A DNA stretch of 64,000 bases. Source: Candidatus Saccharimonadota bacterium (GTDB lineage: Bacteria; Patescibacteriota; Saccharimonadia; Saccharimonadales; Saccharimonadaceae). The stretch covers positions 1-64,000 of the forward strand of contig JAFQXV010000003.1 of NCBI GenBank assembly GCA_017406775.1, given 5' to 3'. Both the position numbers and the translations under genes were made by a program. Below, piece after piece: positions 684-59,884 of this stretch (positions are counted from its first letter, which is position 1; each line of letters opens with the position of its first letter). The notes under the pieces are model-generated. The model worked only from the letters and a program-made list of their open reading frames with translations. It searched no databases and had not been told where the DNA came from.

Positions 684-1922
684 TTATTTTATTAATTTTT
701 GATAAATATTAATGAATTTATCTAAAGTTTTTTCCATATCATGCTCGGCGGCGATTTTTACAGAATTGGTCGCAAACTTTTGTTGTAGTTCCGGATCCGA
801 TAAAATTTTAATCATAGCCTCGGCAATCTCCGCCGTATTACCCGGCCTACACAAAAATCCGTTTTTGTCCGAAATACACACCTCGGACACCGCCCCTTTA
901 TCCACCGCAATCAAAGGCAACCCCGTAGCTGCCGCCTCTATCAAAACTATCCCCTGCGTTTCTATCTCACTCGCCGTCGCAAACAAAGTCCCCACCCTGT
1001 ATAATTCATATAAATCCGGCGGCGTAACTCTTCCCAAAAACTTAATCGCACTACTTAATCCATCATCTTTCACCATCTTTTCTAACCGTGCCTTATCCAC
1101 CCCATCACCCACAATCACCATCTCTGTTTTCGGAACAAACTTACGCGCCTCCTTAAACGCCGCAATTACCGTACCCACCTGCTTTTCCGGATCCACTCTG
1201 CCAACATATAATACCACTGCGGCATCCTTATCTATCCCATATTTACGATAAATCCCGGCTGGTGCCTTGCCTGGCTTAAAATGTTTTAAATCCACCCCAT
1301 TAGATACCGCCGCAATTGGAATTTCAAACTGATGTTTTTCTAATAAATTCCTAATTGCCTGCTCGGTTGGCATTGTTACAAAATCACTTTTACTTTGCCG
1401 ATTTCTAAAATATGCACTTAGCATCGCATTAACGGGCTTTTTCATTGGACCAGGCATTTTTAGAGGGTCCGTAATTACTTCTGGCTGATTATGCTCGGTA
1501 GTTACTACCGGGATCCCTCGTTTTCTGGCATAAGACACCACAGAAAGTCCAATCGGATCTGACACCTGTACATGCACCACATCTGGCTTAAAATCATCCA
1601 AAATCTTTTTAATTTCTATCTGCGGAAAAATCGACACTTTAAATCCATTTTTATAGAAAAGATGTGGCAACTCTACGCCTAAAACCTTTTTCTTTTTGGG
1701 TACTGGATTAATTTGATCTGGATAGACCTTAACATCCATCGACCTTAAATATTTTATCTTAACACCATCTTGCGTACGGGTATAATTACGCCCGGTCTGA
1801 CTAGGCGTAATCACCATTACCTCATGCCCACGCCGCGCCAACCCCACCGCCAAGTTATGTGAGAACACCGCTACTCCGTTAATCTGCGGATAATAAACTG
1901 CCGTTGCAATCACAATACGCAT
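684..1922 (-). CDS. GT4-family glycosyltransferase
   Basis: This is a GT-B fold glycosyltransferase of family GT4, probably cytoplasmic or membrane-associated, transferring a sugar from an activated nucleotide donor to a lipid or glycan. The N-terminal domain has the glycine-rich acceptor loop (PQINGVAVFSHNLA, residues 13-26 of this start). The C-terminal domain begins near VVLYVGRVDPEKQ and carries the E-x7-E type motif (SEIETQGIVLIEAAATG). Length 412 residues is normal. I chose the ATG at 1922 over an upstream TTG at 1940, because a TATAAT box (1929-1934) lies 6 nt before it and the longer form would start inside the promoter. The donor and acceptor are not deducible; glycolipid synthesis is one option. 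An inverted-repeat element sits just upstream and supplies part of the promoter region. Confidence 0.88.
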   Translation of the reverse strand: MRIVIATAVYYPQINGVAVFSHNLAVGLARRGHEVMVITPSQTGRNYTRTQDGVKIKYLRSMDVKVYPDQINPVPKKKKVLGVELPHLFYKNGFKVSIFPQIEIKKILDDFKPDVVHVQVSDPIGLSVVSYARKRGIPVVTTEHNQPEVITDPLKMPGPMKKPVNAMLSAYFRNRQSKSDFVTMPTEQAIRNLLEKHQFEIPIAAVSNGVDLKHFKPGKAPAGIYRKYGIDKDAAVVLYVGRVDPEKQVGTVIAAFKEARKFVPKTEMVIVGDGVDKARLEKMVKDDGLSSAIKFLGRVTPPDLYELYRVGTLFATASEIETQGIVLIEAAATGLPLIAVDKGAVSEVCISDKNGFLCRPGNTAEIAEAMIKILSDPELQQKFATNSVKIAAEHDMEKTLDKFINIYQKLIK

Positions 1923-1930
1923 AAACACAT

Positions 1931-2047
1931 TATAACACAAATAGTCTTTTGAGGACCATAAGCTTGGGCAGACCGCCCCTTGGGACGCGGACGACCCGAA
2001 GGGTCGAGCGCCCTTGAGCGTGTCCGAAAAAGACTATTTGTGTTATA
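1931..2047. repeat. GC-rich palindromic element, copy 1 (intergenic)
   Basis: A perfect 20-bp inverted repeat (1931-1950 and 2028-2047) encloses a GC-rich core. The core begins TTTTGAGGAC (1947-1956) and ends GTGTCCGAAAAA (2020-2031). Inside are further hairpins: GACCC-GAA-GGGTC, and an outer GGG-CGC/GCG-CCC stem around it, plus GGGC-AGACC-GCCC. The same termini and near-identical core length (85 versus 86 bp) recur in copy 2 within the dus gene, so this is a repeat family rather than a chance terminator. It lies between ctpA and the GT4 gene; the left arm overlaps the GT4 -10 box. Confidence 0.75.
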
Positions 2048-2051
2048 TATG

Positions 2052-3239
2052 TTATATACTCTTTGCCTTATCCATCTGCGGGTCGCGCATTGCGTTAATG
2101 TCTTCGTAAGTTCTTTCCACCTCAATATCCGGCTTAATCCCCTCGCCATTAATGGAGCGATCCTTAGGTGTAAACCACTCAGCCGTAGTAACTTTAAGCA
2201 CTCCACCATTAGAAAGATCGTATAAACTTTGCACTACGCCCTTGCCGTAAGTGGTCTCCCCTACGATGGTCGCCTTATCGTAATCTTGCAAGGCCCCCGC
2301 CACAATTTCTGATGCCGAAGCCGAAGAACCATTTACCAGTACCACCGTCTTCATATCTTTAAGAATAGCCTTACCACTTCTAGCCGCTGTATTAGAATCG
2401 CCTAAATGCTTTGATTTTTGAATCAATACATTCTCACCGTCAATCCAAAGACTTAATAAATCCTGTGCCGCCGACACATATCCACCACCATTATTACGTA
2501 AATCCAAAATTACTTTCTTTACACCCTTGCCAGCAAAATCTTTGGCAAAATTCTGCACCATGGTACCAGTATCGTTATCGAACCTTGTTACGGTTACAAT
2601 CGCCGTGGACCCATCATAATCTACGTAAGCCGAAACGTTATTAATAGACTCACGCTTCATGGTAAACGATTTTTCTTTACCATCTCTAACTACGGTAACC
2701 GTAACCTCCGTCCCCTCTTCGCCACGTACTTTTTTAGAAATCTCATCCGTGGATAAATTATAGACATCCTCACCATTAACTTTATAAATAATATCGCCAG
2801 CTAGAATCCCCGCTTTACGCGCTGGATTATCTGGTAAAGTCCTTAGCACCCTTACATAACCATCCCGAAGTCCCATTTCTACACCAATTCCGCACCCTAC
2901 ATTACCATGCAAATCATCGTAAAATTCCGAAGTCTCGTCACTATCCATATAAACTGTATAGATATCACCCAAAGCCTCAGTCATACCTTTTTTGGCTCCT
3001 TCTATCATTTTTTCGGAATCAAGTTCACCATTGTAGGTAGTAGCTAGTTTACCATAAACCTCATTTAAAGAAGACCAGTCCACACCCCCATTATTAGAAA
3101 ACCCTAAATATGGTCCAAAACTACCAAACCAGTTTTGCCAGTTAAGCCCCACTATAAACGCCACGATAGCAAAAACTGCTCCAGCAATAATAGCGTTACC
3201 TAAACTAGTTTTTCTTTCTTTCCACACTTTTTCACTCAT
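2052..3239 (-). CDS. ctpA: S41-family C-terminal processing peptidase
   Basis: Membrane-anchored serine protease of the S41 family, acting outside the membrane on exported proteins. The order is an N-terminal transmembrane helix (about residues 15-35), a linker, a PDZ domain (about 110-195, with a typical GDIIYKVNG segment), then the S41 domain. The catalytic Ser is in NGSSASASEIVAG and the Lys in TTYGKGVVQS, both conserved positions of the family. Length 395 is standard. A TATAAT box (3247-3252) lies 7 nt before the ATG, so the mRNA is probably leaderless. It follows the ftsE-ftsX-CHAP block in the same direction. CtpA-type proteases are known to trim or degrade peptidoglycan hydrolases, so a role in controlling the neighbouring hydrolase is a reasonable inference, not shown here. 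Confidence 0.92.
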   Translation of the reverse strand: MSEKVWKERKTSLGNAIIAGAVFAIVAFIVGLNWQNWFGSFGPYLGFSNNGGVDWSSLNEVYGKLATTYNGELDSEKMIEGAKKGMTEALGDIYTVYMDSDETSEFYDDLHGNVGCGIGVEMGLRDGYVRVLRTLPDNPARKAGILAGDIIYKVNGEDVYNLSTDEISKKVRGEEGTEVTVTVVRDGKEKSFTMKRESINNVSAYVDYDGSTAIVTVTRFDNDTGTMVQNFAKDFAGKGVKKVILDLRNNGGGYVSAAQDLLSLWIDGENVLIQKSKHLGDSNTAARSGKAILKDMKTVVLVNGSSASASEIVAGALQDYDKATIVGETTYGKGVVQSLYDLSNGGVLKVTTAEWFTPKDRSINGEGIKPDIEVERTYEDINAMRDPQMDKAKSI

Positions 3240-5492: not shown

Positions 5493-6260
5493 TTAAATCA
5501 CCCTTCTTTTTGGCCCTAATGCATGACCAGGAGTTTGCACTCTTCTTACCGGCGCTTTTGGCACGGGAGTTGCATCCAAATTATATATACCATTGTTTTT
5601 TTGGTCGCTCACAATTTTACCACCCTTTAGCGTAATTACGCGTTTTTGTAAATTATTTACAATGTTTTCATTATGCGTAGTAACTAAAATAGTGGTGCCA
5701 AAATCATTAATTCTTTTAAGTAAATCAATAATTTCCTTAGTAGTAAGTTTATCCAGGTTGGCCGTAGGCTCATCCGCAATTAAAATTTTAGGCTGCCTTG
5801 CTACAGATCTTGCAATCGACACGCGTTGCGCCTGCCCACCAGACAATTGATCTGGAAACTTATTGGCCTGCTCCGATAAATCCACCAACTCCAAAACCTT
5901 AGGCACCGTACGACGAATCTCCTTGCCGCTCATCCCCGCAATCTCTAACGCGAATGCAACATTTTCATAAACTGTACGCCTAGGCAAAAGTTTAAAATCC
6001 TGAAATACTACACCAAGACGTCTCCTGTAACCTGGGATGTGACGCTTTTTTACATAATCAAGATCAATTCCACCAATAATAATTTTGCCAGAATCTGGGA
6101 TCTCTTCCTTGGTGATCATTTTCATCAAGGTGGATTTACCAGCGCCAGATTTTCCAACTAAAAACACAAACTCATTTGGCTCAATATGTAGAGACACCGA
6201 ATCTAGCGCCGGCTCAGCATCCCCAGGATATTTTTTAGTGACAGAGTCAAATAGAATCAT
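5493..6260 (-). CDS. ftsE: Cell division ATP-binding protein FtsE
   Basis: ABC ATPase that pairs with FtsX. Walker A is GKSGAGKST (about residues 37-45), the signature is LSGGQAQRV, Walker B is ILIADEPTANLD, and the H-loop follows in VTTHN. It has a C-terminal Arg/Pro-rich tail (VPKAPVRRVQ) of about 30 residues beyond the usual 225-residue FtsE. A TATTAT box (6267-6272) lies 6 nt before the ATG, so it probably starts the ftsE-ftsX transcript without a leader. Confidence 0.95.
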   Translation of the reverse strand: MILFDSVTKKYPGDAEPALDSVSLHIEPNEFVFLVGKSGAGKSTLMKMITKEEIPDSGKIIIGGIDLDYVKKRHIPGYRRRLGVVFQDFKLLPRRTVYENVAFALEIAGMSGKEIRRTVPKVLELVDLSEQANKFPDQLSGGQAQRVSIARSVARQPKILIADEPTANLDKLTTKEIIDLLKRINDFGTTILVTTHNENIVNNLQKRVITLKGGKIVSDQKNNGIYNLDATPVPKAPVRRVQTPGHALGPKRRVI

Positions 6261-58840: not shown

Positions 58841-59884
58841 ATGAAAAACATTTGGCAAGAACTTTCTACTCCTTTTCTCATCCTCGCCCCAATGGAAGGC
58901 GTTACGGATGTGGTTTTTCGTCAGGTTATCGCAAACGCTGGTAGGCCAGATTTATTTTTTACTGAATTTACCAATGTCTCTAGTTATGCTTCTGAAAAAG
59001 GCCGCGCTAATGCATTGGAACGTTTTCAAACGGCCCCTACCGATTCCCCAATTATCGCTCAAATTTGGGGCAAAAATCCCGATCATTTTTCGGAATGCGC
59101 CCAGGCGCTAGCATCGCTTGGTTTCTCTGGTATCGACCTTAATTTTGGTTGCCCCGATAAACACGTTAATAAAGCCGGTGGCGGCGCCGCTATGATTAAG
59201 ACCCCGGAGCTCGCCGTAGAGTGTTATCGGAACGCCGTTAATTCCACCAATTTACCAGTTTCCATTAAAACCCGCCTAGGCTGGAATCAGCCCGAAGAAT
59301 ATCAGGAATGGCTATCCACTCTACTTGCAGAGCATCCAGCCGCCCTCACCGTACACCTTCGCACCAAAAAAGAAATGAGCAAAGTCCCAGCCCACTATGA
59401 ATTAATTCCTGAAATCATTAAATTACGAAACGATATTTCACCCCAAACCAAATTAATCATTAATGGAGATATATTAAACCGCGCTGAGGCCCTAAAATTA
59501 CATCAAAAATTTCCAGAGGTAGACGGCTTTATGATCGGCCGTGGAGTCTTTCAAAATCCTTATTGTTTCACCGATCACACCCCCACCCGCGAAGAACTAA
59601 TAGAACTATTAAAACTACATTTAGATTTATACGAAGAACGTATTAATCAAGTTTTGAGGACTCTGCCGGAGTCACGACGAGGCGGAAGGGGCGCGGCCCC
59701 CGCAACGGCGGGCGGACGCGACCCCGTGTCCGAAAAACTTAGATTAATACGCTCTTCTTATGAGCCTCTCAAGCATTTCTTTAAAATCTATATTAATAAC
59801 TTCCCGGGTGCTAAGGAAATCCGTGCTGAGCTTATGGAGACCCACTCTATCCCCGAAGCCAGAGAGATCATCAAAGATTTATAG
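58841..59884 (+). CDS. dus: tRNA-dihydrouridine synthase with an in-frame palindromic insertion
   Basis: FMN enzyme that reduces uridine to dihydrouridine in tRNA D-loops. TIM-barrel features: ILAPMEGVTDVVFR at the start, GIDLNFGCPDKHVNKAGGGAAM with the catalytic Cys, and FMIGRGVFQNPY at the phosphate-binding end. Length 347. Residues about 272-300 (LRTLPESRRGGRGAAPATAG...DPVSEK) are Arg/Gly/Pro-rich and are encoded by a GC-rich repeat element that keeps the reading frame. The insertion sits between the barrel and the C-terminal helical tRNA-binding domain, a loop likely to tolerate it. Confidence 0.93.
   Translation: MKNIWQELSTPFLILAPMEGVTDVVFRQVIANAGRPDLFFTEFTNVSSYASEKGRANALERFQTAPTDSPIIAQIWGKNPDHFSECAQALASLGFSGIDLNFGCPDKHVNKAGGGAAMIKTPELAVECYRNAVNSTNLPVSIKTRLGWNQPEEYQEWLSTLLAEHPAALTVHLRTKKEMSKVPAHYELIPEIIKLRNDISPQTKLIINGDILNRAEALKLHQKFPEVDGFMIGRGVFQNPYCFTDHTPTREELIELLKLHLDLYEERINQVLRTLPESRRGGRGAAPATAGGRDPVSEKLRLIRSSYEPLKHFFKIYINNFPGAKEIRAELMETHSIPEAREIIKDL
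59639..59751. repeat. GC-rich palindromic element, copy 2 (in frame within dus)
   Basis: Arms CGTATTAATCAAGTTTT (59639-59655) and its inverse (59734-59751, with one extra base) flank a core with the same ends as copy 1: TTTTGAGGAC (59652-59661) and GTGTCCGAAAAA (59726-59737). The inner sequence differs but again folds into hairpins (GACTC-TGCCG-GAGTC, GGGGC-GCG-GCCCC). The insert adds about 28 codons and no stops in the dus frame. Confidence 0.78.

Follow-up and report, generated by a model that had tools for sequence, protein, structure and literature searches.

REP and BIME sequences, associated with RAYT (Y1) transposases, are short imperfect palindromes present in many dispersed copies, REPs being extragenic and of fixed sequence. 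Bacterial MITEs such as Correia/NEMIS, ERIC and RUP are small, non-autonomous dispersed elements with stable folds, and some of them are fused to genes. How protein-coding palindromes spread has been, to our knowledge, an open question since the Rickettsia palindromic elements (RPEs) were reported in 2000. RPEs are hairpins of about 100–150 bp that are found between genes and, in frame, within conserved genes, and are apparently selfish (PMC10969869, PMC2229807). They are described with a terminal inverted repeat of 12 bp (PMC2229807) and, as cited in PMC6649704, lose repeat identity over time. That source describes coding palindromes in nematomorph mitochondria as long near-perfect inverted repeats in coding genes, gained and lost, with arms kept identical, perhaps by template switching (PMC6649704).

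We analysed a stretch of 64,000 nucleotides (the window) from a Saccharibacteria genome (G000), whose named relatives are ruminant-gut Candidatus Saccharibacteria MAGs. The sequence-only reading had proposed a family of palindromic elements, with an intergenic copy (copy A) and a second one inside dus (copy B), and had likened it to the in-frame elements of Rickettsia. The likeness stands for the in-frame copies in conserved genes, and extends to the size, hairpin shape, many copies and intergenic as well as in-frame sites of RPEs and of the protein-coding palindromes of Wolbachia; it fails for the fixed, element-borne terminal inverted repeat of RPEs, which was not found here. Going by the published descriptions of RPEs, the present family is set apart by locus-specific arms whose complementarity lasts, by a core that covaries as a three-way junction and contains tandem G-A loops, by orientation flips and by a candidate-phylum host. 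It resembles REP/BIME sequences as short palindromes dispersed in many copies, and MITEs in small size, dispersal, stable folds and occasional gene fusion. With the nematomorph palindromes it shares maintained arms inside genes, whereas no dispersed shared core is known to be described for them (PMC6649704), and the elements studied here hold between their arms a conserved core that moves between loci and species. It is very likely that the element works like a protein-coding palindrome; we compare it with RPEs in how it works, and do not claim that it is one. Open-access literature, with subscription journals largely uncovered, gave no description of a palindromic or miniature inverted-repeat element in Saccharibacteria, and as far as this limited search goes, no such element is known to have been described in the phylum.

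Anatomy of the folded core

Copy A (1931-2047) is intergenic, as proposed, and lies between a glycosyltransferase and an S41 peptidase gene (Table 1). Its perfect 20-bp inverted repeat was confirmed; the enclosed core is GC-rich as claimed (68% GC), but measures 77 nt and not 85 bp. Extended by the GGAC/GTCC stem (1953-1956/2022-2025) beyond the tandem G-A (1951-1952/2026-2027), the arms reach 26 nt with 92% paired, and the + strand folds at -62.7 kcal/mol (z = -9.6 against shuffles). In the relative G169, site A is empty and both flanking genes adjoin directly (..TTGTAGTGAAAATAG..). Copy B was located at 59629-59761, in frame in the dus ORF, and the core termini said to be common to both copies are found there, TTTTGAGGAC at 59652 and GTGTCCGAAAAA at 59726.

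Table 1. Coordinates of the features of copies A and B and of their surroundings in the window.
Feature	Positions	Strand	Remarks
Glycosyltransferase gene, downstream of copy A	684..1922	-	left flank, empty-site anchor
Whole interval holding the site A insertion	1923..2051	.	between S41 peptidase stop (2052) and glycosyltransferase start (1922)
Left arm, copy A (P1, locus-specific)	1931..1950	.	perfect 20-bp inverted repeat with 2028-2047
Core, copy A, short-core subtype	1951..2027	+	GA, GGAC ... GTCC, GA; R1 69.9 bits, R2 49.4 bits
Nested 37-nt hairpin module GACCGCCCCTTGGGACGCGGACGACCCGAAGGGTCGA in copy A loop	1971..2007	+	identical 37-mer in another copy
Right arm, copy A	2028..2047	.	perfectly complementary to 1931-1950
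S41-type peptidase gene, upstream of copy A	2052..3239	-	right flank, empty-site anchor
dus host gene with in-frame insertion	58841..59884	+	element at about codons 267-303
Left arm, copy B, inside dus	59629..59655	+	81% complementary to 59735-59761; both arms coding
Core, copy B, three-way junction	59656..59733	+	read in frame within Dus (RTLPESRRGGRGAAPATAGGRDPVSE); R1 93.7 bits
Right arm, copy B	59735..59761	+	coding, partner of 59629-59655

The anatomy of the core was derived from 74 aligned copies. From the outside inwards, the element consists of the locus-specific stem P1, an internal loop of tandem G-A (in 50 of the 74 copies, GA stands on both strands), a stem of 4–5 bp (GGAC/GTCC or GGGG/CCCC), a junction and the stems P2 and P3, the latter with the tip CCCGU-NACG-ACGGG; overall, the core forms a three-way junction that carries tandem G-A loops. 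Thirty-two of its 34 base pairs showed changes on both sides, with 638 cells changed on both sides compared to 182 +/- 11 in shuffles, counts that lean towards the structure since the aligned sequences had been gathered with a first model of it. Paired cells amounted to 93.9%, against 67.6% in shuffles and at most 50% when partners were slid by 1–3 columns. Even with such model-based sampling, an effect this large, together with the result of the slides, makes it hard to doubt that the core structure is conserved. The middle of the core, said to vary while still folding, did so with strong covariation. In the P1 stem, 50 of 961 cells are G-U. Regarding known RNA families, Rfam covariance models gave no match at the element at gathering score, only an unrelated L10 leader, and no match up to E = 1 on the dus copies of three loci, where low-scoring matches lie away from the copies.

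The 37-nt module GACCGCCCCTTGGGACGCGGACGACCCGAAGGGTCGA of copy A is found as an exact 37-mer in the apical loop of a copy of another subtype (G000, C4 near 28012), with variants at C13:86258 and C13:90662 of the same genome and in G275. Core hairpin modules nest in one another's loops, the exact 37-mer lying in two different host cores.

Copy number, distribution and in-frame insertion

Searching 295 genomes of the family with the terminal pattern (55–85 nt spacing) added copies from three other congeneric genomes, each copy lying in its own inverted repeat; a match in another genus (L007) has an unrelated interior and was taken as chance. A first covariance model, built from five copies, detected the element in 158 of 174 congeneric genomes, with up to at least 23 copies per genome. 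The whole of G000 (720 kb) was read for copies, and about 34 with the longer core (covariance model R2) were found, plus shorter-core ones, so the family proposed from two copies proved to be much larger. A second model, run over 380 genomes across the phylum, had matches within the family in the genus itself and in one other genus, where they often form inverted pairs; outside the family, the only matches were in two distant genomes with five and two copies, plus one weak match. Outside the genus the element is rare.

In a neighbouring genus, the element occurs between genes in inverted pairs about 50–200 bp apart (G109:C2:62481-62743 and 155282-155621; G068:C4:277742-278082 and 400561-400948). 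An element of the same type, with locus-specific arms, lies between groES- and groEL-like genes in a distant Patescibacteria family (L235), in a genome with five copies (G624). G000 also holds a tandem array of short-core copies (C3:7901-8053 and beyond), with arms nearly alike from unit to unit.

A chance origin is excluded because G000 contains 33 perfect inverted repeats (arms of at least 16 bp, 25–160 nt spacing), while three Markov-shuffled genomes gave 0, 0 and 0. An assembly artefact is unlikely as well: at the same sites, independent MAGs (from goat, sheep, buffalo and other sources) have the element or lack it, and the frame is kept. Phage, plasmid and IMG/VR collections gave no match that would make them carriers; the single IMG/VR hit (L239) covers only 17 nt of a phage coding gene, by chance.

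To describe the gene context, we took 57 copies from G000, G169 and part of G275. Forty-two of them lie in open frames with both flanks conserved in another genome, 30 in sense and 12 in antisense. For 27 of 41 intragenic copies at least one orthologue is shorter by more than 15 residues, and alignments place the inserts in variable loops of the host proteins. Together with the empty site A in G169, this agrees with insertion, and the sites are not filled alike in all relatives. According to NCBIfam, the host genes encode UvrB, LepA, PcrA, AlaRS, ValRS, LeuRS (two copies), TsaD, Der, TrmD, LigA, TopA, MnmA, Tgt, TruB, Dus and others. Both intergenic sites and variable loops of conserved proteins receive the element, in the latter case in frame. 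In each of the 42 intragenic copies the reading frame stays open, partly by construction, as spanning open frames were sought; this fits translation of the inserts as part of the host proteins. Many Saccharibacteria housekeeping proteins carry 25–45-residue inserts of mobile origin, which affect annotation, phylogeny and structure prediction and offer a naturally occurring set of sites at which essential enzymes tolerate insertion.

One could argue that the element is a cis-acting structured RNA used by the host as a regulator, a processing site or a 3'-end element, the tandem-G-A strand being the functional RNA. Such a role would suit the strong covariation, the conserved internal loops, the better fold of one strand, the ratio of 30 sense to 12 antisense copies in genes and the position of other hairpin classes near gene 3' ends. 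However, orientation relative to the gene is not constant: the 12 antisense copies are intragenic, and several orthologous genes hold the element in opposite orientations. Besides, copies sit mid-way in unrelated coding genes, many orthologues lack the element and no Rfam family reached gathering score. We consider this explanation unlikely.

Moving cores and local arms

Arms pair with their own partner at 86.7% Watson-Crick, in comparison with 44.5% for the partners of other copies and at most 50.2% in 1000 permutations, in line with the claim that arms are locus-specific. Within dus orthologues, the values are 91.6% for the own partner and 52.9% for others. Where two copies have cores that agree to at least 90% (mean 94%), their left arms are only 49% identical, with a background of 41%. 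A core with 100% identity but different arms was found in two species (L011/L013), in an intergenic region of G270 and a glycosyltransferase gene of G282; another is common to the mnmA region of G343 (L022) and uvrB of G294 (L036), also with different arms. Since identical cores stand at unrelated loci, in different species and between different arms, it is the core that moves, while the arms belong to the site; vertical inheritance alone is rejected because of these identical cores. The core has dispersed to many loci and between species, and each copy is closed by a long locus-specific stem. We are all but certain that the family is real and mobile.

Orthologous sites flip in orientation between species in UvrB, PcrA, TrmD, a methyltransferase, RecX and Dus. 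At the dus site, L087 and L100 carry 99% identical cores in opposite orientation, with dissimilar arms. About 14 of 80 relatives carry a recognisable copy in dus at the matching codon position, and most have none. In the alignments of intragenic copies, 41 shorter dus orthologues lack the insert. Two of the 80 (L095 and L117) carry instead an AT-rich element of different sequence with the same TTGAGGA...TCCGAAA ends. Most empty dus sites show no hairpin. The dus of L146 (around 5790-5850) has a bare 11-bp hairpin with no core exactly at the insertion point, and that of L094 a smaller one; these are either excision remnants or palindromes that preceded insertion.

The latter option leads to a second alternative, in which the element enters the loop of a small palindrome, so that the locus-specific arms predate it. 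The bare hairpins of L146 and L094 would be such targets, and the 37-nt module does sit in the apical loops of other elements. Against this, the bare hairpins could equally be what excision leaves, most empty dus sites have none, and perfect inverted repeats of at least 16 bp do not arise by chance. Insertion into pre-existing hairpins is in our opinion improbable.

Regarding transposition, the size, the copy number, the palindromic shape and the mixture of intergenic and intragenic copies would all be expected of a MITE that a parent insertion sequence mobilises with its transposase, with arms that are eroded terminal inverted repeats. Unlike in MITEs, no shared terminal repeat outside the core was found that matches a transposase element, the Y1 family having been searched, and the roughly 49% arm identity at nearly identical cores also speaks against eroded repeats. 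G000 lacks the Y1 (RAYT) transposase, as do 96 of the 99 sampled congeners (3 have it), which separates the element from REP/BIME sequences and removes Y1 as its mobiliser. No direct target-site duplication was seen, in orthologues that have diverged too far for the junction to be located at single-base level. A MITE origin is very unlikely.

Origin of the arms and candidate mobilisers

The family represents an RPE-like lifestyle in a reduced bacterium of another phylum, in a different form, and lets the mechanism of spread be tested. Two features bear on it: cores that are identical between loci while arms differ, and sites that flip. Moreover, since 174 genomes were sampled and many hold tens of copies, insertion, excision, inversion and arm renewal can be traced comparatively.

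Our main reading, to which we assign a probability of roughly 0.6, is that of a selfish family of protein-coding palindromes whose arms arise anew at every site, probably through fold-back copying, and whose complementarity is maintained by selection or palindrome correction. The heritable part would be the core, and the arms would not be carried along but made or remade at the target. In the most likely scheme, a hairpin-shaped copy of the core would be joined to a strand end; fold-back (template-switch) synthesis, the simplest option, would then copy the neighbouring strand in inverted form and rejoin. Afterwards, palindrome correction and structural selection would keep the arms complementary, the palindrome would allow inversion in place, and translated copies would persist, tolerated as loop extensions.

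In some cases, the outer arm segments are inverted copies of native codons, as with GCCGAAGG/CCTTCGGC in tsaD. Two other hairpin classes also contain an inverted native flank, from the last dus codons (L087:6015-6198) and from a gene end (L100:1787-1952). Fold-back at the target may have made the arms, at somewhat less than even odds. The evidence for arms being made at insertion comes from divergent orthologues, all species pairs compared being only about 75–90% identical. Part of the pattern could come from arms that co-evolved quickly under vertical descent, as many sites are shared between species and the dus arms covary. Some selection on structure must act, because pure palindrome correction would erase the conserved unpaired G-A loops.

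Mobiliser candidates were sought in the Y1 and RVT_1 families, neither of which yielded a mobilising enzyme, and regular expressions found no HUH transposase. RVT_1 profiles detected three DGR-like reverse transcriptases in the 0.72-Mb genome of G000 (C12:125651, C13:136450 and C2:50124), and RVT_1 in 60 of 99 congeners. Retroposition, in which a reverse transcriptase such as the DGR-like ones of the genus copies a structured RNA, could draw on these three enzymes and on the RNA-like fold. Yet genomes that have RVT_1 and genomes that lack it do not differ in copy number (medians 9 and 12, p = 0.83), and 17 sampled genomes with no RVT_1 carry at least 15 copies, which makes this route hardly credible.

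Returning to fold-back copying, we put forward, tentatively, a broader proposal: a mobile element whose only heritable part is the folded core might, at each insertion, prime fold-back synthesis from its hairpin and so turn target sequence into the inverted repeat that flanks it. Every copy would then end up as a perfect palindrome specific to its locus. This mode may be common to several unrelated core classes that these genomes harbour, and to distant Patescibacteria. We know of no bacterial element for which such hairpin-primed spread has been described.

Other hairpin classes are present in G000. A second, AT-rich intergenic class (ATAATGAGATTTAGACCAGATTTG ... AACAAGTCC) has long perfect locus-specific arms, often starting from the stop codon of a gene (C12:50300, 90493 and 155900; C14:1181; C2:4836; C6:50187). 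A third, with a GAGCACGGAACT...TTCCGGCGCAG tip, shows two nested levels of locus-specific stems (C12:109051 and 137963; C4:9792; C6:68114; C8:14268). Finally, two more classes also have locus-specific arms: the GATGGAAGCC type (C13:133387, C6:61757 and C8:22639) and the GGAACATAAAGACTTGGCC type (C12:98190, 103270, C6:69397, C8:24595 and C10:1779), the latter also found in a glycosyltransferase gene.
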